From contig OY720346.1 in the NCBI GenBank assembly GCA_963082975.1, forward strand, positions 71,725,267-71,789,266: a stretch of 64,000 bases of DNA, written 5' to 3'. This stretch comes from Labia minor. Its lineage: Eukaryota > Arthropoda > Insecta > Dermaptera > Spongiphoridae. The position numbers were made by a program, and so were the translations under genes. How positions within the stretch are numbered: the first letter of the stretch is position 1; each line of letters starts with the position of its first letter. The notes under the pieces were generated by a model. It ran no database searches, was not told where the DNA came from, and saw only the letters and a list, made by a program, of their open reading frames with translations. Below are positions 9,860-64,000 of the stretch, piece by piece.

Positions 9860-11251
9860 TTATAAACATTTATTTTTAAATGAATAACGTTCGATAATAC
9901 TTGCAAAAGGTAACAACTCTTTAAAATTCTTATGAGTATCTCGAGCATACACATTAGAATCAAAGGGCCAATCCCTATTTTTTTCATCAGTGTATTTATT
10001 AATGTTCAATGTATGAACACGCAAGTTATTTTTAATTGTCCTAAAATCAATTTTTATATCTGTATAATCAAGAATTAATTGATATAATGTTTTACATTGA
10101 AAAAGGTATGGAAGTACTTCATTACATATTTTTCGACATCCATACAATGATAAAATATTTAATTTTTTTATTTTAAAGATATCCTCTAGATCAATAGAAA
10201 TTAAAAATTGACAGCATTCTAATCGGAGATCTGTTAAATTTTCAAACTTATTAAGCATTTTCAAGGCATTTTTCTGGACAAAATCGCAAAAAACTATTTT
10301 CAAATTTGTTAATGGTAACCTTTTTTTAAGAAACACTTTAACTAGTTGCTCTGTAAAGGATTCAATATGGAAAAGCATTACTTTTTTCAATTTACCTAAT
10401 GGTGCAATTTCAAAATAACTCCTGAGAATTTCTTCTGGGCCATTGTATGCAATCTGTAGATGTTCTAAATTTTCTAATTTTGACAAATAAGATGGCCAGG
10501 TATTATTATCACAATTAATATCGATTTCTAATTCTCTTAAATGAGAGAAGTTAGCTATTGATTTCAATGGTTCAATTGTTGTTATCAATAATTTCGGCAA
10601 ATTTAATGTTACAAGTTGGTTCATTTTCATTAATAATTTATTTATATTTTTATTACAATAATATTCAGATGGAAGACTAAACTTTTTTAAATTTGGAAAA
10701 AAATAATTAATACCCCATAGAAAAATATCATGATTTAGTTCGGGCCCTTGTATAATAATTTCCTCTACCTTATCGAAAATAGGATATGTTGGCGATTTAC
10801 CTTCTTCGACATCACTTGATAATTTTATTAGAAAATCTCGTATTTTATCTAATTTTATTTCGGAGTTAACATGAAAAACAATTTTTTTTATTCTTAGTAT
10901 GGATGAATGTTTTATAAACTTGATTAAAAATTCATAATTCATCACATTTACTTCAACAGTTTTTATTAAAAAATAGAATCGTTCAAAAAACTTAGCTAGG
11001 AAGGAATCCGAATCGGTGAAACAAATTGTAGGCGAGGAAGAAACAATTCCAGAATTGATAATCGCATCGTAATAATATGGATCTTCACTAAAATCAAGCA
11101 ATTGTTGTAATGTTGAATATTTAAGAATATTACCTACTAATTCTTGCGGTAATCTCCTCATATGTTGATGTAATTCTTGATCATAACTGAAATTTACAGT
11201 TGTTTCATTTACAGGAGACAGCTTCTGAACACACTGGTTGGTTTTTTCCAT
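9860..11251 (-). CDS. F-box/leucine-rich-repeat protein, copy 1
   Basis: 463-residue intronless protein from the ATG at 11251. Residues about 34-75 form an F-box-like segment (LPQELVGNILKYSTLQQLL), the part that docks on Skp1 in SCF ubiquitin ligases. From about 185 to 430 there are irregular leucine-rich repeats (FPNLKKFSLP, LRELEIDI, LENLEHLQIAY, LTNLKIVF, FENLTDLRLECC, KKLNILSLYGC) like FBXL proteins. The inferred role is substrate receptor of a ubiquitin ligase or a secreted mimic; the target is unknown. The frame extends upstream to 11317 but starts there with GTG after a stop, so the internal ATG is used. Two paralogues lie in this window. The open frame despite surrounding decay suggests selection or very recent copying. 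Confidence 0.8.
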   Translation of the reverse strand: MEKTNQCVQKLSPVNETTVNFSYDQELHQHMRRLPQELVGNILKYSTLQQLLDFSEDPYYYDAIINSGIVSSSPTICFTDSDSFLAKFFERFYFLIKTVEVNVMNYEFLIKFIKHSSILRIKKIVFHVNSEIKLDKIRDFLIKLSSDVEEGKSPTYPIFDKVEEIIIQGPELNHDIFLWGINYFFPNLKKFSLPSEYYCNKNINKLLMKMNQLVTLNLPKLLITTIEPLKSIANFSHLRELEIDINCDNNTWPSYLSKLENLEHLQIAYNGPEEILRSYFEIAPLGKLKKVMLFHIESFTEQLVKVFLKKRLPLTNLKIVFCDFVQKNALKMLNKFENLTDLRLECCQFLISIDLEDIFKIKKLNILSLYGCRKICNEVLPYLFQCKTLYQLILDYTDIKIDFRTIKNNLRVHTLNINKYTDEKNRDWPFDSNVYARDTHKNFKELLPFASIIERYSFKNKCL

Positions 11252-12407
11252 CTTTATAGATGGTATGATTAAAAAACAAAAAATAAAATCAAAAACAAAA
11301 CAAATTGGAAAGTACACTCAGTTAGCAAGCGTGCTAATGTTGACTTGGTGAGATGCAGAGAGCAAATGATAGCTGAAGGAAATGGAAGAGGCCGTTTATG
11401 TCGAAAAAAGGTGTGTCGGAACAGGCAACCAATCAGAAGACCCCTTAAGTAAAAATAAGAAGAGTGGGGTTCGAACCTTTTTTCTACCTCTCTATTGTAT
11501 TTGTTCAATATTTTGATTTTCTTATTTTTTTAGTCTCTCTTTGTAAAGATAAAATTATAACTTTCAAATGATTTTAAATGTAATTATTAAAAAATCAGGA
11601 ATTATAATTATTAAAAAAGTCAAAATTGTTCATCAAATAGCCTTTTTATCTATGTTCAAAAAATATATATAACATATATCTTTACTATCTCGCCAGAGAA
11701 TTCATCATTAATTTTAATGGTATAAAATATTCATAATTATCTTCAAAATGAAAATCTATCCTGAATTAAAATTGTATGCTTCCGAATCCGTTGAAAAAAA
11801 AATAATCGGAGCAAAACAAAAGGAGTTAGTTACTAAAAGTAATTAATCGCTAATTGTATTACAAGTAATTAAATATAATTCTCATATTGATGAAAAATCC
11901 ATAAAATAAATTAATCAAATATAACTTCTATTTATAAAGTGACAGCAAGTAGTAAATGAAGGATTTTTATGATTATTATTTCATAATTATGAATTAAAAT
12001 TAAGGATATTGTAATTAAACAAGTACGACAAAATAAATTCATAAAGTGTATTATCAAATATTTATTGAAAGTTTTAATATTCATTTAATAATATATTTCA
12101 AATAATATTTTTCGTTGTGTATGAAAGAATACATCCATAAACTTTGTCAGGCTTATAGAAAAAGTATTTGATTCTTTCAAGTCCATGAGAAAAACCTTAT
12201 TTTATAAAAAATGTTTATATTTATATTATTGTTAGTTTCTTTTAAAAATTGTATTTTGTTTAATTGAAAAGGAGAAACAATAATAATACAACAAAAGGCA
12301 AATTTATACCGGTTAGTTTATAAAGTCCTGAACTTGTAATGGGGAATGTGATAAAAGCTTCTTATTTTATGAAAATTCATTCAGTTTGGGCCAATTCTAA
12401 AAATATA
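11252..12407 (-). other. Conserved 5' flank of F-box/LRR gene in BR
   Basis: About 250 bp just upstream of the gene (to about 11520) is strongly conserved among the three copies and less AT-rich (for example CAAGTCAACATTAGCACGC on the minus strand). It is a candidate promoter/5' UTR. Open frames across it begin with non-ATG codons and are not supported as genes. The rest is AT-rich. Confidence 0.5.
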
Positions 12408-14560: not shown

Positions 14561-17500
14561 CACAATCTAAAAATTATTTCCTTAAATGTTAATTCCCTCA
14601 TTTCAATTCAAAAAAAAACTGACCTCTTACAAATTATCTCAACTCACAATCCGGATATTCTCATCCTATGCGAGACTAAGCTTAATGTTAAGCACCTTCT
14701 TGTATTTCCCAACTATTCGGTCGTGAGAACTGATCGAGGTGACACATTTGGAGGCGGAACCGCTATCTTAGTAAAAAAAAATATAAAATTCACGGAAATT
14801 ACTAAATTTAAATTAGTCAACAAATCTCTTGAATCCACTATTATCAAAATTAAACTTAATTCTACTGAAAATCTCTTTATAATATCAATATATAGTACAA
14901 ATAGGAATAACAGTAATTTTATTAAAGAAATTAACACAATCTTTGAATCACTAAATTTTTCGAATTATAAAAACTTCTTTATTATGGCAGGCGACTTTAA
15001 TGCAAAACATCGTCTCTGAAATAATAAATTAAATGATTTTAGAGGAAAAAGCCTTAGAAATTGGTTCACCGAAAACCAAATTAAATTCAGAATGAAATTC
15101 GTTTTTTCGGAATTTCCTTCGTATCCCAGATGCTCTTCATACCTGGATTAATATTCTTGGATTCGCGTCTCAATATTCTTAACTCATTGAATGAAAATCA
15201 ACTACCCACTATTAACTTTGATAGTGATCATCTTGGCTTATTAGCATTAATTAAAATAAATTTAACCCAACCCAAAAACTTTTTGATTGAGAAATTCAGT
15301 ACTAAATTTAATTTCAATAAAACCAACTGGAATCACTTCCAAGATCTTCTTAACAAAAATATTCCTCTGAACATATCCCAGACAAAAAATCTAAATAATG
15401 ATGAAATAGATAGCTCAATAGTTCTAATCGAAAACCACATACTGAAAGCTCTACACAAATCTACTCCGCCAATTAAATATCAAAATTCAGTTAATAAATA
15501 TTTAAATAATAAAATTAAAAAATTAAATAAAGCAAAAAGCTTCCTCGTTTCACAAATAAATAGTTTCTATAGAAAAAACTTAAATATAAATTCCACTGAA
15601 TTCAAAGAACTGAAACATCTACTTTCCCTTACGAGGCAAAAACTTTCCAAAGAATATTCGCTTGCAATAAACAGATATTGGAAAGACAAAATTGAAACTA
15701 TTCCGTTAAATGACTCCCTCGAGACCTTCCCTAAAATATAAATTCATTATTTAGAAATAAAAATAAAAACTCTTTCCCCAATAAAATAGAAATTGACAAA
15801 AACAATTCCGATTTAATAAGAATGGCAAATATTAACATTCTTAAACAAAACAAAAATTCATCTGGAAACTTTGAAATTTTTGACACAATAGATAAACTTA
15901 ACATAATAGCCTGCCACTTTTCCCTGACCCATAAACAAAACGAAGGCATGGGAAAACCAGGTCTCTCTAACATAATAAATTCCAAAGTTAACCTACTCAA
16001 GGAAAAAATAGTAAGAGACGCTCATAACAACAAAACAATAACCACTTTCTCCCATAACAATAAATCAACATTCCCTTCCCAACACCAAGACCCATTCTTA
16101 ACACAATTCAATGAAGTCAAAAATATTATCAGACATCTAAATAATAAAAAGTCGACAGGCCTGGACAAGATACCTAATTGTGCTTTAAAACGCCTGCCAA
16201 AGAAAATTATTAAAATATACACGATTATATTCAACAACGCACTTAACAATGGCTACTTTCCTGAAAAATGGAAAAAAGCCAATGTAATTGCTATCCCTAA
16301 AAAAGGTAAAAACCCCTCTTCTATGTCAAACCTTCGTCCGATCAGCCTATTATCTAATGTAGGTAAAATCCTTGAAGTGTTGATAAACAAAAGACTGGTC
16401 TCCGCTATGGAAAGTTTAAATTTTCTCCCAGAAACACAATTCGGGTTTCGCTTTAAACACTCAACAGTACATGCTATTTCGAAACTCACCTCCGATATTT
16501 GCTGGTCATTAAATAACAATGAAGTAGTTGCAGCTTGTCTGATCGACGTGGAAAAGGCCTTTGATACTGTATGCCGTGAAGGTCTTATTTACAAAATGAT
16601 AACAAAAGGTTTCGATGAAAACCTGATTAAATTCATTTGGAATATGATCGAAGGAAGATCTTTCGTTACATTTAACAATGACACTGTGTCTTCTATTCAA
16701 TGCCAAATCACAAATGGTTTACAACAGGGTACAATTAACTCGCCAGTATTATTCAACATATTTATTAGCGATATTCTCACTGCATATGGCCTGAACGAAA
16801 CAAAGGGTAAATATGGAATTTCCTTCGCAGACGATTTAATCATCTATCTGTCGGGCACAAAGTCTAAACAACTACAACATGATCTTGAAATATTAGTAGG
16901 CAAAATCTTTTCTTTTTATCATTCTTGGAAATTAAAAATTAATATCAATAAATGTGAAACTATTCTATTTAGGCCCCTAATTGCTAGATGTAATCATAAC
17001 ACAAAATTAAATTGGAAAAAATTTCAAATTAAAATTAAAGGACAAAATATTCCACACAAAAGCTTAGTCAGATACTTAGGAGTTTACTTAGACGAACGTC
17101 TTCTATTCAATAAACATGTCAAAATCCAATTAGATAAAGCTAGATCGGCTTTCATGGGTTTAAAAAAGTTATTCTTCTGTCCTTATCTAGACCCAAAATT
17201 AAAAATTTTATGTTATAGCTTATTTGTTCGACCAATAATTACATACGGATGTTGCATTTGGTTCAACCAAACAGCCTCGGTAATGGAATCAATAAGAAAA
17301 TTTGAAAGGAGTTGCCTAAGAGCATGTCTGGGTAAATACAGATCCCCTGAATCAGATTACAAAAAATATTTTAGTAACGAAATAATATACAACTTTTCTA
17401 ATTTAAACAGAATTGACATATTTATAATTAAATTAATCCGCAATTACTATAGTAAAATAATCAACATTCGAGAAAATAGCTTAATCTACGGGGTTTCAAA

Positions 17501-17768
17501 CCCTAATGATATGTACTTTAGGCGAACCCTAATTTCAGGCTTTATTCCACCTGAAGCATTCACCTATTTGGACGCAAATGGCTACATCCAGGACTCAAAT
17601 AAAATTCCAATTATGTATCATATATTTAGGAAAAGTACTGACCGAAGCATAACTTACGATCCCTTCTTAGATGGAAAAGATCAATATAGATTCTGGCGTT
17701 TCAATATGGCAATCTCAAAAAGAGATAAGAGTGATAATAAAAAAAAATACTGGTGGATTGAAAATTAA
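14561..17768 (+). pseudogene. Jockey-type LINE ORF2 (endonuclease and reverse transcriptase), broken
   Basis: The endonuclease starts near 14573 (LKIISLNVNSL, DILILCETKL, AGDFNAKH). A TGA at 15017 stands where Trp is expected after the GDFNAKH motif. Frameshifts follow at about 15145 and 15738. The RT is intact from 15822 to 17768: GLDKIPNCAL, LRPISLLSNVGK, CLIDVEKAFD, NGLQQGTINSP, SFADDLIIY, then a C-terminal domain ending IEN. It makes the target-primed copying enzyme of the element, now dead through at least three lesions. Confidence 0.85.
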
Positions 17769-24990: not shown

Positions 24991-26367
24991 TCAATAAATA
25001 AATGAATAACGTTCGATAATACTTGCACAAGGTAACAATTCTTTAAAATTCTTATGAGTATCTCGAGCATACACATTAGAATCCAAGGCCCAACCCCTAT
25101 TTTCTTCATCAGGGTATTCTTGTTTAATGTACAATGTATGAACACGCAAGTTATTTTTAATTCTTCTAAAATCAATTTTTATCTTTGTGCCATGAAGGTT
25201 TAATTGATAGAATGTTTTACATTGAAAAATGTATGGAAGTACTTCATTACATATTTTTTGACATCCCGCCAAAGATAAAATATTTAATTTTTTTATTTTA
25301 AAGATATCCTCTAGATCACTAGAAATTAATGAATGACAGCATTCTAATCGGAGGTCAGTTAAATTTTCAAACTTATTAAGCATTTTCAAGGCATTTTTCT
25401 GGAGATCTAGGCAAAAAATTATTTTCAAATTTGTTAATGGTAACCTTTTTTTAAGAAACACTTTAACTAGTTGCTCTGTAAAGGATTCCATTGTTAAAAA
25501 CGTTACTTTTTTCAATTTACCTAATGGTGCAATTTCAAAATAACTCCTCAGAATTTCCTCTGGGCCAGAATATATAATCTGTAGATGTTCTAAATTTTCT
25601 AATTTTGACAAATAAGATGGCCAGGTTTTATTATCAGAATCAAAAGCGATTTCTAATTCTCTTAAATTAGATAAGTTAACTATTGTTTCCAATGATTCAA
25701 TTGTTTTTATCCATAAATAAGGCAAATTTAATGTTTCCAGTTTGTTCATTTTCATAAATAATTTATAAGTTAAAAAACGTTCGTTTTGAATAATTAACTT
25801 TTTTAAATTTGGAAAACAATAATTAATATCACATAGAAAAATATAATGATCTTCTATGGACCATTTTATAATAATTTCCTCTACCTTATTGAAAATAGGA
25901 CAAGTTGGCGATTTACCTTCTTCGACATCACTTGATAATTTTATTAGAAAATCTCGTATTATATCTAAATTACTTATGGAGTAATTTTGAAAAACAATTT
26001 TTTTTAATCTAAGCATGGATGAATGTTTTATAAACTTGATGTAAAATTTATAATTCCACTCATTTACAACAACAGTTTTTATTAAAAAATAGAATCGTTC
26101 AAAAAACTTAGCGGGGAAGGAATCCGACTCGTCGGAAAATATTGTAGGTGAGGAAGAAACAATTCCAGAATTGATAATCGCATCGTAATAATATTGATTT
26201 TCACTAAAAAGAACCAATTGTTCAAATGTTGAATATTTCAGAATATTACCTACTAATTCTTGCGGTAATCTCCTCATATGTTGATGTAATTCTTGATCAC
26301 AACTGTAATTTACAGTTGTTTCATTTACTGGAGTCATCTTCTGAACACACTGGTTGTTTTTTTCCAT
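24991..26367 (-). CDS. F-box/leucine-rich-repeat protein, copy 2
   Basis: 458 residues from the ATG at 26367, in the same place within BR as copy 1. The F-box-like segment LPQELVGNILKYSTFEQLV lies at residues about 34-75, followed by leucine-rich repeats (FPNLKKLII, LRELEIAF, LEHLQIIYS, LTNLKIIFC, LTDLRLECCHS, LNILSLAGCQ). The N-terminal 60 residues are nearly the same as in copy 1, while the middle (about residues 120-230) differs much more. No stop or frameshift. A likely SCF-type substrate receptor by domain make-up; expression and target are unknown. The C-terminus ends ERYSFIY, shorter than copy 1 by a few residues. Confidence 0.8.
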   Translation of the reverse strand: MEKNNQCVQKMTPVNETTVNYSCDQELHQHMRRLPQELVGNILKYSTFEQLVLFSENQYYYDAIINSGIVSSSPTIFSDESDSFPAKFFERFYFLIKTVVVNEWNYKFYIKFIKHSSMLRLKKIVFQNYSISNLDIIRDFLIKLSSDVEEGKSPTCPIFNKVEEIIIKWSIEDHYIFLCDINYCFPNLKKLIIQNERFLTYKLFMKMNKLETLNLPYLWIKTIESLETIVNLSNLRELEIAFDSDNKTWPSYLSKLENLEHLQIIYSGPEEILRSYFEIAPLGKLKKVTFLTMESFTEQLVKVFLKKRLPLTNLKIIFCLDLQKNALKMLNKFENLTDLRLECCHSLISSDLEDIFKIKKLNILSLAGCQKICNEVLPYIFQCKTFYQLNLHGTKIKIDFRRIKNNLRVHTLYIKQEYPDEENRGWALDSNVYARDTHKNFKELLPCASIIERYSFIY

Positions 26368-27526
26368 CTTTATAGATGGTATGATTAAAAAACAAAAAAT
26401 AAAATCAAAAACAAAACAAATTGGAAAGTACACTCAGTCAGCAAGCGTGCTAATGTTGACTTGGTGAGATGCAGAGAGCAAATGATAGCTGAAAGAAATG
26501 GAAGAGGCCGTTTATGTCGAAAAAAGGTGTGTCGGAACAGGCAACCAATCAGAAGACCCCTTAAGTAAAAATAAGAAGAGTGGGGTTTGAACCTTTTGTC
26601 TACCTCTCTATTTTTTCAATATTTTGATTTTCTTATTTTTTTAGTCTCTCTTTGTAAAGATAAAATTATAACTTTCAAATGATTTTAAATGTAATTATTA
26701 AAAAATCAGGAATTATAATTATTAAAAAAGTCAAAATTGTTCATCAAATAGCCTTTTTTCCTAGGTTTAAAAAATGTACATAATATATATCTTTACTATA
26801 CAGAGAATTCATCATTAATTTTTTAATGGTATAAAATATTCATAATTATCTTCAAAATGAAAATCTATCCTAAATTCAAATTTTATGCTTCCGAATCCGT
26901 TGAAAAAAAAATAATCGGAGCAAAACAAAAGGAGTTAGTTACTAAAAGTAATTAATCGCTAATTGTATTGCAAGTAATTAAATATAATTCTCATATTGAT
27001 GAAAAATCCATAAAATAAATGAACCAAATATAACTTCTATTTATAAAGTGACAGCAAGTAGTAAATGATTATTATTTCATAATTATGAATTAAAATTAAG
27101 GATATTGTAATTAAACAAGTACGACAAAATAAATTCATAAAGTGTATTATCAAATATTTATTGAAAGTTTTAATATTCATTTAATAATATATTTCAAATA
27201 ATATTTTTCGTTTTGTATGAAAGAATACATCCATAAACTTTCTCAGGCTTATAGAAAAAGTATTTGATTCTTTCAAGTCCATGAGAAAAACCTTATTTTA
27301 TAAAAAAAATTTATATTGAAATTATTCTTAGTTTCTTTTAAAAATTGTATTTTGTTTTTAATTGAAAAGGACAAACAATAATAATACAACAAAAGGCAAA
27401 TTTATACCGGTTAGTTAATAAAGTCCCGAAATCGTAATGGGGAATGTGATAAAAGTTTTTATTTTATGAAAATTCACTCAGTTTGGGCCAATTCTAAAAA
27501 CTGAATATATATATACTTTTAGCCAC

Positions 27527-28499: not shown

Positions 28500-28503
28500 A
28501 TAG

Positions 28504-29253
28504 TGTAATATTTTAATTTATAAATATTTTTATATATTATATATAATATATAAAAATAAATATAAATCGATTTTTTAATTAATAATATTTCTAAAATAAT
28601 CGAGATTCGCAGAAGAGGGGAGTAAGGTGAACAAAGTACTTGAGGGGTCGATTGGTAGGTTCTGGGTGCGTGGAGGACATTCAAGGAGGAATCGTCTGTG
28701 AGTGCGGGCTTACCTGTGAGTGTGACCCTTTTCCCTTCCCCGCTGCACGTCTGGCCTATACTCAGAGGAGTGCGTATATATATTTGGTTTAAAAGTGATT
28801 ATTTGTGAAGTGTTACAATAAAATTTATATTATTTATCAAACAATATTAGATTAAGTGTTAATTAGAATTTATATTTATACTTATCAATTAATAAGTAAT
28901 ATAAATTCACAAGTTAAATAGTGTTAAGTGAAGACTAAAACTAAGTCAAGAAATCAAGTTAATTGGATTGGTGTTATAAATAAATAAGTTATTTTTATAG
29001 AATTAAACTATATTGTATTATATTAAGAGTAAATATTTATAGTTGTTAATTTTAGTAATATATTAGTTAATCAATTATTTGTATGTATAAAATATATTAA
29101 ATTAAGTGTATCATTTTAGTTATAAGGTTACAACTAAATGTTAATTTAAAATTTTATTAATTTTTTTATTATTAAATCAAATAATTTAATAATATGTACA
29201 TTAATAAAAGTTAGTGGTGTCTTAATTTAACAACAATATTTTCCCACATTACA
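28504..29253 (+). repeat. 5' LTR (750 bp)
   Basis: Begins TGTAATATTT and ends CACATTACA (TG...CA). Same length as the 3' LTR at 34839-35588; compared stretches match throughout. AT-rich, with a GC-richer block at about 28600-28760. Confidence 0.95.
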
Positions 29254-29255
29254 AA

Positions 29256-29273
29256 TGGTGTCAGAAGTGGGAT
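29256..29273 (+). promoter_or_regulatory. Primer-binding site (tRNA-Leu-like)
   Basis: TGGTGTCAGAAGTGGGAT two bases after the LTR. It is complementary to the CCA-terminated 3' end of a eukaryotic leucine tRNA, as recalled from general tRNA sequence knowledge. It primes minus-strand DNA synthesis. Confidence 0.75.
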
Positions 29274-29357
29274 CTTTGCAACAAGAAGTGTTAATAGAAC
29301 CCATCACAAAAAGTAAGTGCAATTAACTTTTATAACTTGTTATACCATTTAATCACA

Positions 29358-30332
29358 ATGCCGCCAAAAGTTGACCCTGAAACAGTCTCGGATGTATTAA
29401 ATGAATTGAAAGATCATCTTTCGAAAATAAGTATTCAATCAACTAGTACTATGTCTGCAGCTCCTGATTTGTCCCTACAAGCCCTCGTTCCATATTGGTC
29501 CGGTTCATCCGAGTCCGAACCTATTGAGTCATTTTTATTAAACTTTGATAGAGTTGCACAGTTAGGTGGATGGTCAATAGTTCAAAAGAAGCTTATTCTT
29601 CTAATGAAATTGAAGGATAGAGCAGCTTTGGGTATTAAAGATGAGTGGACATATGAGGAATTAAAACAAGAGTTAACTAAGAAATTTGAAAAACCTTCAT
29701 CTAAACTTTTATTGAAAAAGAAACTACTAAATCTATCACAAAACCCTGAGGAGAGTGTACGGGAGTTCGCAGATAGAATTATTAATGTTCAGAGTTTAGC
29801 ATCCAAGGAAGGAGTAAAGGAAGATGAAACAACTATGTTAGAAATTTTTCTATTAGGTTTAAGAGGAAAATTAGGAGTGGAGGTTAGATGTAGTTCACCC
29901 ACTACTTATGAAGAGGCGTTAGATAGAGCTATAAAAAGAGAGCGCGAATACAATGAAATTTCTCCTATAATGGGAGTAAGTGAAGCTTCTTATATAAATG
30001 AGCAGCAATGTATTTGTTGTGGCTTGAAGGACCATTGGATGGCCGATTGCAAGAGCCCAGTTGCAGTTGCTTTGTTAAAAACAAATGAACTTAGCAATAA
30101 CTGCCAAGTTACGGGTTTATCATCAATAAGATGTTTCAATTGCAATCAGGAAGGCCATGTAGCAAGAAACTGTAATAAAAAAAAACAGGTTGTGAGCGAT
30201 AAGCAATGTTTTATATGTGGGAGCCCAAGACATTTAGCTAAAGAGTGTTCTCGTAGATTTGATAGAAATTCTAATCGCATCCCTCGAGGTACTAACAATA
30301 ACCAACGATACCCAAAAGATCAGGGTCGTTAG
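29358..30332 (+). CDS. gag: Gypsy gag polyprotein
   Basis: 324 residues from the ATG at 29358. The N-terminal capsid-type region (SESEPIESFLLNFDRVAQL, KKFEKPSSKL, VREFADRI) is followed by three CCHC zinc knuckles at the C-terminus: CICCGLKDHWMADC, CFNCNQEGHVARNC and CFICGSPRHLAKEC. It forms the particle and binds genomic RNA. The stop at 30330 lies 13 bases after a CCCAAAA slippery heptamer, and the pol frame (-1) is open across it, so gag-pol is probably made by frameshifting. Confidence 0.9.
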   Translation: MPPKVDPETVSDVLNELKDHLSKISIQSTSTMSAAPDLSLQALVPYWSGSSESEPIESFLLNFDRVAQLGGWSIVQKKLILLMKLKDRAALGIKDEWTYEELKQELTKKFEKPSSKLLLKKKLLNLSQNPEESVREFADRIINVQSLASKEGVKEDETTMLEIFLLGLRGKLGVEVRCSSPTTYEEALDRAIKREREYNEISPIMGVSEASYINEQQCICCGLKDHWMADCKSPVAVALLKTNELSNNCQVTGLSSIRCFNCNQEGHVARNCNKKKQVVSDKQCFICGSPRHLAKECSRRFDRNSNRIPRGTNNNQRYPKDQGR

Positions 30333-30421: not shown

Positions 30422-33400
30422 ATGTTATGCCAAGATAAAACCTATCATTTATTGGTGGATACAGGAGCAGATATTTCTATATTAAAAACTCCCATTGCGG
30501 GGGTGAAAATTCATCAATCAAATATAAAAGCTAAAGGGGTTAGTGGAGAAGTATTAGTGGTTAGAGGAGAACAAAATGTATTAGGTAAGATAGATAATGT
30601 GGATATCGAACATAGATTTCTAATTGCATCTATAGAAACACAACATGATGGACTCGTTGGACTGGATTTCCTAGAAGCGGTAGGAGCTGTTATCGACTGC
30701 ACTAACAGAGAAACCAAAATATCCAAAATAAAAACAAACCGTTCTCCTTATAACGAGACTGGGCAACAAGTATGTTTGATTGAAAAAGTAATTTTACCTC
30801 CTTGGAGTGAATTTGTTTGCTCCGGAAGGTTAACTAAGGGAAGGGGCAAGAATATTGCAGGTGACTATATTCTAGAGCCTCAAAACGAAACTCTTATTCC
30901 GATGAGAGTTGCACGGTCAGTAATCCGATTAAAGGATAATAAAATTCCAATCAAATTAATAAATACTAGTAATAGTAGCATTACTCTCCCCCGAGGTAAA
31001 GTAATCGGAACACTTAGTAATATAGCCGAAACATTAAGCGATTTTGGACCTGGTGAAGAAGAAGAAAACTTGAGAGATATTGCCAAGGAAAAATTGAAAC
31101 ACTTAAACAACGAAGAATATAGGACTATGATTAATCTCTTAGAAAAATATAATTCAATTACCTTTAATCAAAACCTTAAACAAGGTACCAACATCAACGT
31201 TTTTCACAACATAAGAACAGGCGATGCAAAGCCGATTTATAAGCGAGCCTATCCAATTCCATTTCATCTCAAAGAAGAGGTCAAAAGTCAAGTTTCAGAT
31301 ATGTTAGAAAATGGAATAATTAAACATTCGACGTCTCCATGGTCTGCTCCTGTTGTCCTGGTTCCAAAAAAAGATAATGGCGAAGGAGTTAAATATCGTT
31401 TTTGTACTGATTTCAGAGAATTGAACGCCGTAACGAAACCTGATGTTTATCCTTTACCTCGGATTCAAGAGACTCTTGAACAGTTAGGGAAGGCCTCTAT
31501 ATTTTCTACTATAGACTTGGCATCTGGATACCATCAAATACCAGTTGCCAAGGAAGATGTGGAAAAAACCGCCTTCTCTACTCCAGATGGACACTACGAA
31601 TATGTTCGATTGCCATTTGGATTATCTGGAGCACCCGCCACGTTCCAACGAACAATGGATTCCATTCTTGTTGGACTTAAAGGAACAGAATGTTTTGTCT
31701 ATTTAGACGATGTGATAGTCTTTAGTGAGACTTTTGGAGAGCATGTTCAACGTTTGGACAGACTCTTAAATACGTTAAGAATGGCTAACTTAAAAATAAA
31801 TATAAGAAAATGTGAGTTTGCTAAAAATAAAGTCAAATATTTAGGCCATATTGTGACGGATAAGGGCGTACAACCAGATCCTGAAACAGTTAAAGCAATT
31901 AAGGAGTACCCTCGACCTAAAACTGTGAGGCAAATCCGAGCCTTTTTGGGATTAGCAGGTTGGTACAGGCGTTTCATCCCTAGGTTTTCTGAAATAGCTA
32001 AACCTCTTCATAAGGTAACTGGAAAACATGCAAGGTATGAATGGAATGAAGAGCAGGAAACCGCCTTTACGTCATTACGACAACTAATACAATCAAAGTT
32101 AATTTTAGCATATCCGGATTTTAGCCTTCCTTTTATTTTAAATACAGATGCATCAGATGTCGGACTAGGAGCGGTCCTTTCTCAAATGCAATATGGAGAA
32201 GAAAGGCCCATTTGTTTTGCAAGCCGAACGCTTAGGAAAGCAGAGAAAAATTATACAACGACTGAAAAGGAATTGCTTGCTGTTGTATGGGCTACGCAGC
32301 AATTCCGTTGTTATATATATGGACGAACCTTCAGATTGATCACCGACCATTCTTCTTTAAGATGGATGCTAAACCTCAAAGATCCTTCGTCACGGATACA
32401 TAGATGGGCTTGGAAACTATCACAATACTCATATACCGTAGAACACCGTCCAGGAAAATTACACCATCATGCGGATGCCCTGAGTAGAGCCGTATTAGTT
32501 ACAGGGGTAGAAGTCGTTCCCCACTGGGATATATCTCATATCGCTCAAGAACAACTAAATGACACGTTCTGTCAGCGGATAATAAATGATCCCAACAGGG
32601 AGACTATTCAATATGAAACGCTGTGGTATGTAAAGCAGAAGGATAAATCCGATGAGAGATATTGGTACAAATTGTTGGTGCCCAAGAAATTTGTTCATTT
32701 TATCTTGGATACATATCACTCAGAACCATTAGGGGGTCATAGAGGAATTGAGTCCACATTAGAACGATTGAGAAAAAGATATGTCTGGGAATCTATGCGT
32801 CATGATATTGAAACGTTTGTTAAAAATTGTTCCTCTTGTGCTCAACGGAAGAGTCCAGTAAATTTATCCGCCCCGATCGGTCTCCCTTACGAATCAGTCA
32901 AACCAATGGAGATGATATCCCTAGATATCGTGGGACCTCTACCCTTAACAGACCGAAAAAATAAATTTTTATTAACAGCCATTGATCATTTCACTAAATA
33001 TGCCTCTGTAATTCCACTACCTGATCAATCTGCTAGGACTGTAGCCAAAGCATTTGTGGATCACATTATTTGCAGGTACGGTACACCTGAAAGGCTCCTT
33101 ACTGATCAAGGAAGAAATTTTATCTCAATCTTGATGTGCGAAGTTTGTAGATTTCTAAAAATAAAAAAAATTAATACTACAGCTTATCATCCTGAAAGTA
33201 ACGGAATGATTGAGAGGTTCCATCGAACACTGATAGAGCAGCTAGCTCATTTTGTTAAGGCAAGTGGTCGTGATTGGGATGAGTGGACTGCCATGGAGGT
33301 ATTTGCCTATAACAACACCCCTCATTCCTCTACTGGATTCTCACCTCAATTTTTATTTTTTGGAAGAGAGGCTGGTATGCCTAATGAACTTCCCCAACCT

Positions 33401-34777
33401 CCCTTGGGAACAGAAGAAGAATATTTACAAAAGTTGCGACAGGGAATGAATAAAATACATGAGGCAGTACTTAAACGTGAACAGAAGCAAAGAGAACGAA
33501 GAAACATATTAAGAAACAGAGGCAGAAAGGAAAGATCTTTTGTTAGAGGCGATTGGGTTTGGCTTTACGTTCCGTCTATTAAACCCTCAGAGGCAAAAAA
33601 ATTTCGGAAACCCTGGAAAGGACCTTTTCAGGTAATAGAGAAATTGTCAGAGCAAGTTTACGAAATAGAAACATCCCCAGATAATCGCTTAAGAGTTCAC
33701 ATCAACCGATTAAAACTCTCCACAATCAAGGGTAAATCTACTAGTCCGATTTCAGAGAAAAATGAAAACCTCTTTAGTCATCCGACTAATGAGCCTATTG
33801 GAGTCTGCATTGGTGCTGATTTGATTATGACCAAGGGCTTAGCTCTCGAAGTTAGAGAGAAGTTCAATGGATTAGACACTCTTAAAGCTCAACAACCCGA
33901 AGAGGGTAAAACCCTAAAATTAAATAGAGGAAGTAGAAAAATATACTACTTGGTTACCAAAACCCGAAGCCATGAAAGGTCAAATTATGGCAATCTTAAA
34001 AGAGCATGTGAGTCAATGCTCAAACATGCAGAAGAGTTAGGGGGTAGCCTGATAGGCCTCTCAAAAGAGGATTTAGTAACAGATAGACTACGTTGGAACG
34101 TAATTAAATCTATCCTTACTAAGTTATTAAAAAGATATTCCTCAAAAATAATTATATATATGAAACGGAATTCTGACGACAAAGAGAAAGAGTCTTCTAA
34201 TGAAATACTGAATTATGATCCAGCTATTGGAGGCAGAAGAACAGAGAGAATGGGTTGGAGGAATACAATGGAGTTTCTAGAGAGGGAAAAACCAATTGAC
34301 GTGGAACAGTTAGAGAAAGAACCTAATTCAGAGATGGAGATGGAAAGGGATAACGGGAGAGCAACCAGCGATGTTGATTCCTCCAGTTCAGAAATAGAAC
34401 CTCAGGACGAGCAGGTGTCATCATCGGAGCGAGAAAATAATAACTCCTATGATCACCCGGCTATTCTAGATTCGGAACAAGAGCCTAGAAGAGGTAAGAG
34501 ACGTGGTCGCCCTCCTAAGAGGAAAATATTTAATTTCCACAAACGGAAAATTATCCCAATAGGAGGTGAACCCTCTGAAACCCCAGCATTTTTGGAAACG
34601 GAAGATCATCAATACTCAGAGGAAGATGATCCAGGTACATTATCTGATTGTGTAATTCCACACCAAAGTGAATTGGGTAAAGATATTGTTCCCAGGAGAG
34701 GAAGAAGAGAGGGTCTAAGGAGCCAAACTTATTATAGTTCTCAAAGGCACCATTCCAAAGCAGTATTTTCTTATTAA
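30422..34777 (+). CDS. pol: Gypsy pol polyprotein with added macrodomain-like and AT-hook regions
   Basis: 1,451 residues counted from the ATG at 30422; the frame is open upstream to the frameshift site. Order: aspartic protease (DTGA, residues 13-16), reverse transcriptase (YLDDVIVF near 427), RNase H (NTDASDVGLG near 575), integrase zinc domain (H..H..C..C, 764-806), integrase core DDE (LDIVGP near 834, LTDQGRN near 893, HPESNGMIERFH near 930) and a GPY/F-like module (PWKGPF near 1067). Residues about 1114-1247 resemble TARG1/OARD1-class macrodomains: NENLFSHP, CIGADLIMTKGLA, IYYLVTKTR with K1180, and TDRLRW with D1221. An acidic tail with an AT-hook (RRGKRRGRPPKRK, about 1356-1368) follows. 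The extra domains have no counterpart in ordinary Gypsy pol. Confidence 0.93.
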   Translation: MLCQDKTYHLLVDTGADISILKTPIAGVKIHQSNIKAKGVSGEVLVVRGEQNVLGKIDNVDIEHRFLIASIETQHDGLVGLDFLEAVGAVIDCTNRETKISKIKTNRSPYNETGQQVCLIEKVILPPWSEFVCSGRLTKGRGKNIAGDYILEPQNETLIPMRVARSVIRLKDNKIPIKLINTSNSSITLPRGKVIGTLSNIAETLSDFGPGEEEENLRDIAKEKLKHLNNEEYRTMINLLEKYNSITFNQNLKQGTNINVFHNIRTGDAKPIYKRAYPIPFHLKEEVKSQVSDMLENGIIKHSTSPWSAPVVLVPKKDNGEGVKYRFCTDFRELNAVTKPDVYPLPRIQETLEQLGKASIFSTIDLASGYHQIPVAKEDVEKTAFSTPDGHYEYVRLPFGLSGAPATFQRTMDSILVGLKGTECFVYLDDVIVFSETFGEHVQRLDRLLNTLRMANLKINIRKCEFAKNKVKYLGHIVTDKGVQPDPETVKAIKEYPRPKTVRQIRAFLGLAGWYRRFIPRFSEIAKPLHKVTGKHARYEWNEEQETAFTSLRQLIQSKLILAYPDFSLPFILNTDASDVGLGAVLSQMQYGEERPICFASRTLRKAEKNYTTTEKELLAVVWATQQFRCYIYGRTFRLITDHSSLRWMLNLKDPSSRIHRWAWKLSQYSYTVEHRPGKLHHHADALSRAVLVTGVEVVPHWDISHIAQEQLNDTFCQRIINDPNRETIQYETLWYVKQKDKSDERYWYKLLVPKKFVHFILDTYHSEPLGGHRGIESTLERLRKRYVWESMRHDIETFVKNCSSCAQRKSPVNLSAPIGLPYESVKPMEMISLDIVGPLPLTDRKNKFLLTAIDHFTKYASVIPLPDQSARTVAKAFVDHIICRYGTPERLLTDQGRNFISILMCEVCRFLKIKKINTTAYHPESNGMIERFHRTLIEQLAHFVKASGRDWDEWTAMEVFAYNNTPHSSTGFSPQFLFFGREAGMPNELPQPPLGTEEEYLQKLRQGMNKIHEAVLKREQKQRERRNILRNRGRKERSFVRGDWVWLYVPSIKPSEAKKFRKPWKGPFQVIEKLSEQVYEIETSPDNRLRVHINRLKLSTIKGKSTSPISEKNENLFSHPTNEPIGVCIGADLIMTKGLALEVREKFNGLDTLKAQQPEEGKTLKLNRGSRKIYYLVTKTRSHERSNYGNLKRACESMLKHAEELGGSLIGLSKEDLVTDRLRWNVIKSILTKLLKRYSSKIIIYMKRNSDDKEKESSNEILNYDPAIGGRRTERMGWRNTMEFLEREKPIDVEQLEKEPNSEMEMERDNGRATSDVDSSSSEIEPQDEQVSSSERENNNSYDHPAILDSEQEPRRGKRRGRPPKRKIFNFHKRKIIPIGGEPSETPAFLETEDHQYSEEDDPGTLSDCVIPHQSELGKDIVPRRGRREGLRSQTYYSSQRHHSKAVFSY
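33761..34162 (+). other. Macrodomain-like region within pol (TARG1/OARD1 type)
   Basis: About 134 residues, close to the size of the stand-alone enzyme. Lys1180 and Asp1221 stand 41 residues apart, as do the catalytic Lys84 and Asp125 of human TARG1, each in the matching local context (YYLxTK; DRLxW). The glycine-rich ligand loops are changed: the family's MGAGIA-like segment reads MTKGLA, and the IGCGL-like loop before the Asp reads KEDLVT. Either ligand preference has shifted or binding is weakened. Family knowledge: these enzymes release ADP-ribose from acidic side chains. Confidence 0.75.
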
Positions 34778-34822: not shown

Positions 34823-34838
34823 TTAAAGGGAGGAATAG
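34823..34838 (+). promoter_or_regulatory. Polypurine tract
   Basis: TTAAAGGGAGGAATAG directly before the 3' LTR, purine-rich from 34825. Expected plus-strand primer. Confidence 0.8.
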
Positions 34839-35588
34839 TGTAATATTTTAATTTATAAATATTTTTATATATTATATATAATATATAAAAATAAATATAA
34901 ATCGATTTTTTAATTAATAATATTTCTAAAATAATCGAGATTCGCAGAAGAGGGGAGTAAGGTGAACAAAGTACTTGAGGGGTCGATTGGTAGGTTCTGG
35001 GTGCGTGGAGGACATTCAAGGAGGAATCGTCTGTGAGTGCGGGCTTACCTGTGAGTGTGACCCTTTTCCCTTCCCCGCTGCACGTCTGGCCTATACTCAG
35101 AGGAGTGCGTATATATATTTGGTTTAAAAGTGATTATTTGTGAAGTGTTACAATAAAATTTATATTATTTATCAAACAATATTAGATTAAGTGTTAATTA
35201 GAATTTATATTTATACTTATCAATTAATAAGTAATATAAATTCACAAGTTAAATAGTGTTAAGTGAAGACTAAAACTAAGTCAAGAAATCAAGTTAATTG
35301 GATTGGTGTTATAAATAAATAAGTTATTTTTATAGAATTAAACTATATTGTATTATATTAAGAGTAAATATTTATAGTTGTTAATTTTAGTAATATATTA
35401 GTTAATCAATTATTTGTATGTATAAAATATATTAAATTAAGTGTATCATTTTAGTTATAAGGTTACAACTAAATGTTAATTTAAAATTTTATTAATTTTT
35501 TTATTATTAAATCAAATAATTTAATAATATGTACATTAATAAAAGTTAGTGGTGTCTTAATTTAACAACAATATTTTCCCACATTACA
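34839..35588 (+). repeat. 3' LTR (750 bp)
   Basis: Direct repeat of 28504-29253; TGTAATATTT to CACATTACA, followed by the duplicated target ATAG. Confidence 0.95.
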
Positions 35589-35592
35589 ATAG

Positions 35593-48988: not shown

Positions 48989-50286
48989 TTTTTTTTTTTT
49001 TTTTTTTTTATATATATATTATTTCAGAAAATATACAATCTGCCTATTTTAATATAGGCAATAAGTAATTTTTATAAAAAATGAAATACAAACAATACAT
49101 ACATATCATTGGCAATACAATATCATGCCAAGCAACATAATTGCACTTAACACACACATATTAGTTTTAAATATTATACACTAAACACACACACTCATCC
49201 CGAACATTTCGTAAACACGCACTTCACTTTGTCACACATGAATGTCAAAATTTTCTATATTAGCGAGATCCAATATATCATATCTTTTTAATCTCTTGAT
49301 TGTATCATCCCAAACTAGTAATTTTTTAACTAACACATTTGGATGGTTTTCCATTTTTTTAATATACTTTTCACTTAGGATGTTTATTTCATCATTTAAG
49401 TTTTTAATTTCTAAGTCCCTTTGTATGAATCTAATTGGAACATACCACGGGGCTCTTACAAGATTTTTAAGTGTTTTGTTTTGAAAACTTTCAATTTTTT
49501 TTATGTTAGTTTTTGAGGCTGATCCCCAGAGTTGGATCCCATACATCAGTTTTGGTTTGATTATGGATTTGTATAGAAGAACTTTGCTTTCTAATCCTAG
49601 GCTAGAATGTCTCCCTAAAAGCCAATATAGTTTTCTATACTCTTCCCTTGAGTGGACAATTCTAGCTGAAATATGTTTTTTCCAAGTCAAGCGCCTATCT
49701 AGATGGATTCCTAGGTATTTTGCCTCATCTTTTTGCGGAATGATAGATTTATTCATGTATATTGGTGGGCATGTTTGCCTATTTAAGTTGTAGGTGACAA
49801 ATATAGATTTGGTTGCATTTATCTTTAACCGCCATCTTTTAAACCAAAGAGATAACATATCGAGATGAGTTTGAAGTCTTTCAGATACGACATTATGATT
49901 TACATTTGTTGAAATGATTGCAGTATCATCAGCGAAAGTTGCTACGTCATTATAAGGAGAGAGAGGCATGTCTATCATATATAATAGGAAAAGGGCTGGC
50001 CCTAGAATACTACCCTGAGGGACTCCTGCTCTAATTTGCATTAAGTTGGAGGAAGAACACCCATATTTAACAAAAAAGTGTCTATTCGATAGATAAGACT
50101 TTAATAATTGATAAAATGTGTCTGGTAAATAGTTTTTAATTTTATAAATTAACCCTGTGTGCCAAATTTTATCAAAAGCCTGTGTTATATCAAGATATAC
50201 TATTCCACAGTAAGATTTACTTTCAAATGCATCTTTAATTTTTTTAACTACCCTATGCACCTGTTCGATAGTAGAGTGTTCTTGAC
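48989..50286 (-). mobile_element. 5'-truncated Jockey-type LINE
   Basis: Flanked by the duplication GAAATCAAAT (48979-48988 and 50287-50296). The poly(A) tail appears as the T run at about 48989-49008. Only the C-terminal part of ORF2 was copied. Short truncated insertions like this are the usual product of target-primed reverse transcription. Confidence 0.9.
49232..50286 (-). pseudogene. Jockey-type reverse transcriptase fragment
   Basis: An open fragment from RQEHSTIEQVHR at the truncation point through YLDITQAFDKIWH, AGVPQGSILGPALF and FADDTAIIS to the C-terminal domain ending NFDIHV. No stop inside, so the insertion is young, but there is no promoter, endonuclease or start of the RT. Confidence 0.88.
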
Positions 50287-55163: not shown

Positions 55164-56405
55164 TTATACAAAGTAATTTTTGATTCTGCTAAAATTAATT
55201 TTTATCTTTGTGGCATCAAGATTTAATTGATAGAATGTTTTACATTGAAAAAGGTATGGAAGTACTTCATTACATATTGATTGACATCCAAACAAAGATA
55301 AAATATTTAATTTTTTTATTTTATGGATATCCTCTAGATCACTAGAAATTAATGAATGACAGCATTCTAATCGGAGGTCAGTTAAATTTTCAAACTTATT
55401 AAGCATTTTCAAGGCATTTTTCTGGACATCTTTGCAAAAAATTATTTTAAAATTTGTTAATGGTAACCTTTTTTTAAGAAACAATTTAACTAGTTGCTCT
55501 GTAAAGGATTCAATAAACAAAAGCATTACTTTTTTCAATTTTCGTAATGGTGCAATTTCAAAATAACTCCTGAGAATTTCTTCTGGGCCAGAATATCTAA
55601 TCTGTAGATGTTCTAAATTTTCTAATTTTGACAAATAAGATGGCCAGGTTTTATTATCAGAATGAAAAGCGATTTCTAATTCTCTTAAATTAGAGAAGTT
55701 AACTATTGATTGCAATGGTCCGATATTTTTTATCAATAATGTCGGCAAATTTAATGTTACAAGTTGGTTCATTTTCATTAATAATTTATTTATATTTTTA
55801 TTACAAAAATATTCAGATGGAAGACTTAACTTTTTTAAATTTGGAAAAAAATAATTAACAGCCCATGGAAAAATATCATGATTTAGTATGGGCCCTTTTA
55901 TAATAATTTCCTCTACCTTATTAAAAATAGGATAATTTGGCGATTTACCTTCTTGGACATCACTTGATAATTTTATTAGAAAATCTCGTATTATATCTAA
56001 TTTGGAAACATGAAAAACAATTTTTTTTATTCTTACCATGGATGAATGTTTTATAAACTTGATTAAAAATTTATAATTCATCTCATTTACAACAAAAGTT
56101 TTTATTAAAAAATAGAATCGTTCAAAAAACTTTGCGGGAAATGAATCGGAATCGTCGAAAAATATTGTAGGTGAGGAAGAAACAATTCCAGAATTGATAA
56201 TCGCATCGTAATAATATGAATCTTCACTAAAAACAAACAATTGTTGAAATGTTGAATATTTAAGAATATTACCTACTAATTCTTGCGGTAATCTCCTCAT
56301 ATGTTGATGTAATTCTTGATCACAACTGTAATTTACAGTTGTTTCATTTACAGGAGTCATCTTCTGAAAACAATCGTTGGTTTTTTTTATCTTTTTGGAT
56401 GGCAT
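55164..56405 (-). CDS. F-box/leucine-rich-repeat protein, copy 3 (shortened C-terminus)
   Basis: 413 residues. The F-box-like segment LPQELVGNILKYSTFQQLF is at about 39-80 and is followed by the same leucine-rich repeats as copies 1 and 2 (FPNLKKLSLP, LRELEIAF, LEHLQIRYS, LTNFKIIFC, LTDLRLECCHS, LNILSLFGCQ). It starts at MPSKK, six codons upstream-equivalent of the ATG used in copies 1 and 2, which is ATA here. It ends at RIKNYFV; the last about 50 residues of the other copies are lost by a break and scrambled sequence at about 55080-55170. It may be a decaying paralogue or a shorter functional form. Confidence 0.75.
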   Translation of the reverse strand: MPSKKIKKTNDCFQKMTPVNETTVNYSCDQELHQHMRRLPQELVGNILKYSTFQQLFVFSEDSYYYDAIINSGIVSSSPTIFFDDSDSFPAKFFERFYFLIKTFVVNEMNYKFLIKFIKHSSMVRIKKIVFHVSKLDIIRDFLIKLSSDVQEGKSPNYPIFNKVEEIIIKGPILNHDIFPWAVNYFFPNLKKLSLPSEYFCNKNINKLLMKMNQLVTLNLPTLLIKNIGPLQSIVNFSNLRELEIAFHSDNKTWPSYLSKLENLEHLQIRYSGPEEILRSYFEIAPLRKLKKVMLLFIESFTEQLVKLFLKKRLPLTNFKIIFCKDVQKNALKMLNKFENLTDLRLECCHSLISSDLEDIHKIKKLNILSLFGCQSICNEVLPYLFQCKTFYQLNLDATKIKINFSRIKNYFV

Positions 56406-61637: not shown

Positions 61638-64000
61638 AATATTGCAGGGCAACCTACAGAGATGCCGAGCCGCAGATAGCCTCCTAACGCAGATGACTTT
61701 GGAAAAAAACGCTCAAGTTGTCGTGATTAGTGAACCATATAAAATTAAGGATGATCCAGCTTGGTATGTGGATGTCTCAGGCTATGCTGCGATCTGGAAT
61801 GCCGACGGTGGGGCTATACAAGTGCTTGCAACGGGATCTGGAGATGGCTTTGTGTAGATAGCGATGCGGGACATGACTCTCGTGAGCTGTTATTTCTCGC
61901 CGAATGACCCCATTCGAGAATTCCGGGAAAAGCTAGATAAACTGGAGGATGCCCTTCGCGCTCTGAATGGACCATTTGTTGTCGCCGGGGATTTTAACGC
62001 TAGGGCTTTGGAGTGGGGGATGCAGACTCAGAACTCAAGAGGAAAATATACCTTAGAGATGGCCTCTAGGCTAAATCTCTTGGTAATGAATAGGGGAATG
62101 ACACCTACTTACCGAAGAGCTGGTTTTGGAATGTCGATCCCAGACATTACTCTGATCTCTGAATGTCTGGCGCATAAGGTAGAGGGATGGAGGGTTCTAG
62201 AGGACTATACAGCCAGCGACCATAACTACATCCTGTTTGAAATTACAGATGAGAAACAAAAGCAAAGTGGTGGTGGTCGCCCTGCCCCTCGCTGGAACAC
62301 GTCAAAACTTGACGAGGACAAGCTGGTGGAGTCGTGGAGAGCTGAGTTAGCTGGAGTGACGCCGGAATCAGCTGAGCACATGGACCGTCACTCTCTGGAA
62401 CAAATGGTAGCGAAAATAATGAAAGTTCTATACAAGGCATGTGAATCATCGATGCCTTTACGCAAGCCGCCTGGTAGGAGACGCCAAACTTATTGGTGGA
62501 CTGATGAAATTTCGAGCTTAAGACGCACAGCTTTAGCTTCTAGGCGAAGAGCACAGCGGTCCAGAAACAAATCTGATGCACCAACTCTAGCTGCTGAATA
62601 CAAAATAGCCAAGAAGGCTCTCGCTAATGCGATCAAAGAGAGTAAGCGCCGAAGCTGGCGAAAACTCTGCGAGGAGGTAGATCACGATCCATGGGGAAAT
62701 CCCTATAAAATTGTGATGCGAAAGCTGAACCTCATGAACTCTTCTGGTAAAATGAACGCTCACACCATGCGAGGAATTGTCGAAACATTATTTCCTAGTC
62801 ACCCGGAAAGACCGGAAGAGATAGTCACTTCGATGGTTGGAGTTTTTCCAGTTTTCACAAATGAAGAACTGAAAACAGCGGTTGAATCGATGAAGAGTGG
62901 GAGGGCTCCTGGACCAGATGGGGTGCCAGTTGAGGCACTCAAAGTGATTGCCCGAAAAGAACCCGGGCCTCTTCTTGAAATGTACAATGCCTGCCTGGTA
63001 ACTGGAATCTTCCCCTCAAGATGGAAGACGGCTAAACTCGCTTTGATTCCTAAGGGGAAAGGAAATCCCGGTTCTCCTTCTGCATATCGGCCATTGTGTA
63101 TGCTTGACACATCAGGGAAGCTACTGGAAAAGTTGTTAAAACCTAGACTTCAGGAAGCAATAATAGCTGCTGGTGACCTTTCACATCGACAACACGGCTT
63201 TCGTAAAGGGTACTCCACGATGAGCGCCATCTCTAAAGTAGTTGATGCCGTCGAACAGGCTAGAAATATAGGATGTTCACAGAACACACCATTGGTGCTT
63301 CTGGTCACTCTGGACGTGCGTAATGCCTTCAATACAGCTAGATGGGTGGATATGATTCAAGCTCTGCGAGTTAACTTTGATGTTCCGGAGTATCTTCTAA
63401 GAATAATACGAGACTATCTTAGGGATCGCAACTTGACATATGAAACATCCGATGGAAAAGCTCGTAAGAGGATTACTGCAGGAGCTGCGCAAGGGTCTAT
63501 TCTCGGTCCGGACCTGTGGAATGTCACATATGATGGTTTACTTCGTCTTACCATGCCTGATGATGTGTTTCTAGTGGGCTACGCAGACGACACGGCCGCA
63601 GTTATAACAGCTCGAACTACGGAGCTAGCTCAACTCAAACTCAACATGACCATGAGAAGAGTTCGAGCCTGGATGGAAGATCACGGCTTGGAGCTCGCGA
63701 TGGCAAAGACGGAAATCGTGGTTATCACTCGGAAGAGAATTCCCACGGAAATATCAATGGTCGTCGACACTGAGCAGGTCCAGGCGAAGAAATCAATTAA
63801 GTATCTTGGTATGATTCTGGATGGCAAATTAACCTTCTGGAATCATATCAGGAATATCGCTGACAACGCGGCAAAGGCTGTGGCCTCTCTGTCGAGACTG
63901 ATGGCAAATACCGGTGGTCCTAGTCAGAGCAAGAGAAGACTGCTTATGGTGGCTGCCCAGTCGATGATGTTATATGGATCGGAGATTTGGGCTGTTGCCA
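61630..64000 (+). pseudogene. R1-clade LINE ORF2 (endonuclease and reverse transcriptase), one nonsense codon, runs off window
   Basis: ATG at 61630 overlaps the ORF1 stop (ATGGTTAG). Endonuclease: MVRILQGNLQRC, VVVISEPYK, VVAGDFNARALEW, YTASDHNYI. A TAG at 61855 interrupts it between GDGFV and IAMRDM; the same frame is then open to the window edge. RT: GRAPGPDGVPVEAL, AYRPLCMLDTSGK, HGFRKGYSTM, TLDVRNAFNTARW, AAQGSILGPDLWN, and YADDTAAV in place of the commoner FADD. Apart from the single stop it looks recently functional. Confidence 0.88.

Follow-up and report, generated by a model that had tools for sequence, protein, structure and literature searches.

The window considered here, meaning the whole stretch of DNA that was analysed, comprises 64,000 nucleotides from Labia minor (assembly GCA_963082975.1, contig OY720346.1, positions 71,725,267-71,789,266, forward strand). 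It contains a Ty3/Gypsy retrotransposon whose pol carries a TARG1-type macrodomain after the integrase, with the catalytic Lys/Asp pair kept and the loops altered, an arrangement supported by sequence, predicted fold and many copies. All features of the element lie on the plus strand. By open reading frame (ORF), pol encodes 1451 amino acids (aa) from its ATG (30422..34777), and the frame is open from 30302. The integrase at 32678..33715 consists of an H2C2 zinc domain, an rve core and a GPY/F-type C-terminal module (Integrase_H2C2 3.8e-20, rve 3.2e-13, Integrase_p58_C 1.6e-9). The macrodomain follows at 33749..34159, placed by TARG1 alignment and predicted fold, and corresponds to residues 9-145 of the translated query P0002 (33725-34207). 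The alignment puts the equivalent of TARG1 Lys84 at Lys1180 (33959..33961) and that of Asp125 at Asp1221, the last residue of a replaced phosphate-binding loop, SKEDLVTD (34061..34084). Behind the domain, an acidic linker of low-complexity composition (34208..34486) leads to an AT-hook-like basic motif, RRGKRRGRPPKRKIFNFHKRK (34487..34549), which was found by pattern and by eye and has no Pfam match.

The 5' long terminal repeat (LTR) of 750 bp (28504..29253, TGTAAT...ATTACA) and the 3' LTR of 750 bp (34839..35588) differ by zero mismatches over their full 750 bp, and comparison of the flanks shows a 4-bp target site duplication, ATAG (28500..28503 and 35589-35592). A primer binding site, TGGTGTCAGAAGTGGGAT, lies just 3' of the 5' LTR (29256..29273) and would fit the 3' end of a tRNA-Leu; a polypurine tract 5' of the 3' LTR was read by eye (34825..34838). 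gag (29337..30332) encodes a capsid region and two CCHC zinc knuckles (Pfam Retrotrans_gag 2.5e-8, zf-CCHC 1.3e-7) and overlaps pol, which is in the -1 frame, by 31 bases. Protease matches in pol fall slightly under their Pfam cut-offs, and reverse transcriptase and RNase H occupy 31457..32425 (RVT_1 1.7e-31, RT_RNaseH 1.2e-39). The element thus has the Ty3/Gypsy order of protease, reverse transcriptase, RNase H and integrase with GPY/F module, as well as the LTRs, TG/CA ends and short target duplication of that group. No chromodomain matched in 33422-34777 at E<=1, so the element is not a chromovirus by this measure, and there is no room for an errantivirus-like env between the end of pol at 34777 and the start of the 3' LTR at 34839. 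Among 11 copies of its family, called family A, that were looked at (window included), both ends were found in six, and five of these six have a 4-bp duplication. In the sixth, L017 (L117, L118), a primer-binding-site-like sequence stands after the 3' LTR in place of flank, an arrangement resembling a tandem of two elements with a common LTR. GC content at third codon positions is 0.32 in the macrodomain, the same as in the remaining element (0.28-0.33).

The identity of the domain as a TARG1-type macrodomain is close to certain. Among 177,635 sequences searched, P0002 matches the five human TARG1 sequences of the PDB (E=3e-18 to 4.6e-18), and its alignment to 2eee is gap-free over 137 residues, 41 of which are identical. 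The sequence-only reading had proposed a TARG1 layout at pol residues 1114-1247, with the catalytic residues at K1180 and D1221 and altered glycine loops. The residues read as it described them, the match runs through them without a gap, and K1180 and D1221 fall on K81 and D122 of 2eee and on 84 and 125 of 4j5r, whose numbering is shifted by five. PMC9411070 and PMC5087735 give Lys84 and Asp125 as the catalytic pair of TARG1. That reading had also proposed structure prediction and a Pfam Macro search as checks. The predicted model has the macro core (pLDDT 89.6, pTM 0.83), with an input alignment of 43 TARG1 relatives that biases it towards the macro fold; the model built from the single sequence was of poor quality (pLDDT 42.7) and unused for fold searches. 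The Pfam search went the other way, and P0002 gave no family, Macro (PF01661) remaining below its gathering cut-off. A true TARG1, however, scores only E=4e-6 there, with 27.2 bits where the cut-off is 22, and the related element locus L085 reaches 19.8 bits. The missing match is therefore no refutation.

A search of the same genome (604 Mb, 71 contigs) returned 117 domain matches, and copy counts from it are lower bounds; further families may be missed. Family A accounts for 27 rows at about 25 places, some rows being halves of a single copy, with 81-100% identity over the matched stretch and one fragment at 74%. Family B comprises 31 rows at 28% identity, 18 of them in frames of 1526-1527 aa, and family C comprises 57 rows at 24-27% identity in frames mostly of 1628-1662 aa; these assignments were made by score and frame length, and the sequences themselves were inspected in 8 of 31 rows for B and 13 of 57 for C. 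The scanned copies of both families are Gypsy elements with zinc knuckles, protease, reverse transcriptase, RNase H and integrase upstream (L094 with L065, L095 with L075). The remaining matches are L083, a fragment in which a short integrase end precedes the domain, and the host TARG1 gene (C2:49803555-49804026), which is split into two exon-like pieces; the longer one shows 48% identity to a vertebrate TARG1. An additional search supplied the C-type copies L086 and L087 as well as L085, which has integrase immediately upstream in a different frame and reverse transcriptase farther upstream in broken frames, and which is thus the lone decayed copy of a further family. The copy counts rule out both an assembly accident and a single-copy capture. 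Telomere repeats of the TTAGG type were looked for, with 0 found.

Outside this genome, P0002 alone retrieved none of 57 candidates at E<=0.01 in a protein search, and a 900-residue pol piece, with 168 residues scored, none of 275; TARG1 relatives, 854 in all, were reached only via a two-row profile that included a TARG1 row. The fusion was present in none of four viral-contig stretches found with P0002 and in none of 49 stretches of genome contigs elsewhere. L001, an IMG/VR contig whose integrase is related, was rejected, as it gave no macrodomain match (best E 6.0). In a separate query (A2), 43 IMG/VR loci (L022-L064) showed short TARG1-like ORFs of 141-188 aa; all 43 have the GCGL loop, and the search patterns demanded IGCGL or a YYL.TK-type stretch.

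The active site was compared with the best 120 of the 854 TARG1 relatives, which are mostly vertebrate. In these, the catalytic Lys is present in 120/120 and the Asp in 117/119. Among the element loci in which both columns could be read (46, including the window copy L004, and many near-identical), 45 retain Lys and all 46 retain Asp; the only Lys miss, L087, has its domain split across two frames at that point. The phosphate-binding loop (P0002 111-119) is different. With columns counted as well-kept when at least 95% of the 120 relatives share one residue, 0/7 survive in this loop of the window's family versus 27/50 elsewhere (Fisher p=0.011), in line with the altered loops of the earlier reading. 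In place of PRIGCGLD of TARG1, family A has SKEDLVTD, family B PRIGCGSD, family C PRLGCGMD, L085 TRLGCGQD and L083 PRLGCRRD. The ending DLVTD occurs in all 20 family A loci read (L002-L021) and the full SKEDLVTD in 19, with SKKDLVTD in L014. Decay of the window copy after insertion is ruled out by its identical LTRs, its open frame and this family-wide loop. As judged from these residues, the active site looks complete in family C and nearly so in family B, and family A retains the Lys/Asp pair without the phosphate grip. Because the loop is gone, an active eraser of ADP-ribose is doubtful in the window's family.

Selective constraint on the domain was estimated from pairwise ratios of nonsynonymous to synonymous change (dN/dS, NG86), in which pairs share branches and counts are small. 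The values are 0.14-0.57 in family A (four pairs), 0.23-0.40 in B (four pairs) and 0.13-0.53 in C (seven pairs), compared with 0.09-0.29 for the upstream part (13 pairs) and 0.20-1.05 for the tail (14 pairs). Amino-acid changes are rarer than expected by chance in eight of the 11 domain pairs in B and C (binomial p<0.05), and two pairs, L072/L074 and L065/L068, show the domain under no stronger constraint than the tail. Overall, the constraint on the domain resembles that on the integrase part more than that on the linker. The retention of the domain and its two key residues by related elements of this genome suggests that the domain is in use.

Relatives of the window integrase were sought among 1733 candidates, of which 121 were scored. 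The nearest outside family A (45-56%) belong to families B and C and L085 or are fragments, with domain presence checked in part. The next eight rows (37-39%) lie in frames of 1396 and 1439 aa, one of 650. In the five of these eight that were read, no macrodomain was found (best E 1.1), and pol stops shortly after the integrase with RKRGRPKK. Two fragments closer to the window integrase match partially or weakly: L125 at 5e-12, and L124 at 0.19, improving to 4.8e-6 when the profile takes in the element families. In the integrase tree (midpoint root, with a long-branch warning), the macro-bearing set, with L124 and L125 counted in it, falls on one side of a 100/100 branch from the five macro-less relatives. 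The AT-hook-like end adjoins the domain in A, in C and more weakly in L085, and was not found in family B. Since this end occurs with and without the domain, the simplest account would be that domain and linker were inserted ahead of an older AT-hook-like C-terminus. The macrodomain tree groups B, C, L083 and L085 (99/98), and a single macro clade is not rejected (p-AU 0.384), with macro identity between families of only 21-42%. The C-type relative L124 also holds a Baculo_F envelope-like ORF at 1936-3414 (E 4.8e-22), and in L074 the frame of the pol tail continues into sequence similar to that ORF, so that part of the clade may resemble retroviruses.

The gaps and ends left by integration are attended by PARPs. 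From the features above it can be proposed that a Ty3/Gypsy clade acquired a cellular TARG1 gene in its pol, most simply once, between the GPY/F module and the older C-terminus, and retained the domain. Being made within pol, the domain would stay on or near the integrase and act where the complementary DNA (cDNA) joins the chromosome. In families C and B it would most likely remove mono-ADP-ribose esters placed by host PARPs, putatively from integrase, nearby chromatin or, at the integration gap, phosphorylated DNA ends. In family A, turnover is probably weak or changed, as the phosphate-binding loop is replaced though the Lys/Asp pair stays, and binding may remain. TARG1 itself is described in PMC7050489 as hydrolysing O-acyl-ADP-ribose, protein mono-ADP-ribose and ADP-ribose phosphoesters at nucleic acid ends. 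This account as a whole, from a single capture through integrase-associated action to an eraser in B and C that is weakened in A, has in our judgement an even chance of being right. C and B fit an eraser on the integration complex best; a binder or a slow enzyme is as likely in A. A bolder version, in which the tethered enzyme cleans the integrase and the ends of the strand-transfer gap so that host PARP tagging leaves repair of the new insertion unhindered, and family A has become a binder with a rebuilt loop, is distinctly doubtful.

Several points weigh against the proposed account. It assumes that the domain remains on the mature integrase, and hydrolysis or binding of ADP-ribose by the element domains is its prediction. 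In family A, neither the loop glycines nor the GD pair nor the MGAG loop is preserved; family B is without the GD aspartate and has also lost the KP proline, and in L085 the first loop is altered. In SCO6735, the substitution G128E in the equivalent loop is reported to have lowered activity. Family A stands apart on a long branch (3.2) in the macrodomain tree, the pol-fused relatives all come from one genome, the dN/dS pairs share the limits given above, and three of the 11 B and C pairs miss significance.

The best-surviving alternative, a possible one to which we give less weight, is that the domain, acidic linker and AT-hook-like end together fix the integrase to chromatin with no need of catalysis, by holding ADP-ribosylated proteins or DNA, or some other ligand. 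The domain directly follows the GPY/F module, which is the place of the chromovirus chromodomain; the AT-hook-like motif adjoins it in several families; and in family A it has a dN/dS below 1 in four pairs although the catalytic setting is degraded. A pure reader, however, would have no use for the Lys/Asp pair kept in every family read, or for the whole GCG loop kept in three, and the AT-hook-like end was not found in B and is present without the domain elsewhere. Just six insertion sites were read at both ends; their AT content is 81% and that of the window 72%, with internal sequence on one of the twelve sides. Viral macrodomains strip ADP-ribose added by antiviral PARPs, and this parallel, with the nearby envelope-like ORF of L124, would fit a cytoplasmic counter-defence in which the element domain clears capsid, RNA or cDNA; this is improbable, since the domain is not free but fused behind the integrase. 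That the domain is a tolerated spacer with no ADP-ribose function is very unlikely: the lost loops of family A and the two pairs with no tighter domain would suit it, but dN/dS is 0.13-0.57, Lys and Asp persist despite the low inter-family identity, and the GCG loop is retained in B, C and L085.

If the proposed account of an integrase-associated eraser is correct, mobile elements would intervene directly in ADP-ribose signalling, which is one of the main branches of the DNA-break response. With active sites intact in some and altered in others, the sister families would provide naturally occurring integrase-macrodomain fusions, and PARP tagging as a limit on integration would become testable by ordinary biochemistry.

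Elsewhere in the window, three leucine-rich-repeat ORFs on the minus strand (9860-11317, 24991-26433 and 55164-56405), with 78-82% mutual identity over 46 kb, appear to form a local gene family. Four reverse transcriptase ORFs (609-3870, 15822-17768, 49232-50260 and 61864-63999) are probably non-LTR elements, because the first and last match endonuclease.

Among known systems, TARG1/OARD1/C6orf130, of the ALC1-like macrodomain hydrolases, is closest, sharing a gap-free alignment over 137 residues, the fold and the Lys84/Asp125 pair; the element domain differs in lying inside pol behind the integrase and, in the window's family, in its replaced GD, MGAG and GCGL loops. DarG antitoxin and SCO6735 share the ALC1-like macrodomain fold, and both act on ADP-ribosylated DNA. 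Captured enzymes are known from bdelloid LTR retrotransposons, in which the ORF3 encodes a GDSL esterase or a DEDDy exonuclease (PMC5408684); those elements likewise gained enzyme genes, and the term macro is absent from that text. Among the literature matches listed, there was no Gypsy pol-macrodomain (integrase) fusion; PMC11642819 was set aside, as it concerns a flavi-like virus polyprotein. The sole precedent among them is that fish epsilon-like endogenous retroviruses carry macro domain ORFs (Basta et al. 2009, as cited in PMC4977317). These are alike in being retroelements with a macro domain gene, compared irrespective of macro class, but theirs are additional ORFs, whereas here the domain is an in-frame extension of Gypsy pol. 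Chromoviruses, described in PMC3605345 as Gypsy elements whose integrase C-terminus bears a chromodomain, also append a cellular domain behind the integrase; the window element has a macrodomain and no chromodomain match.
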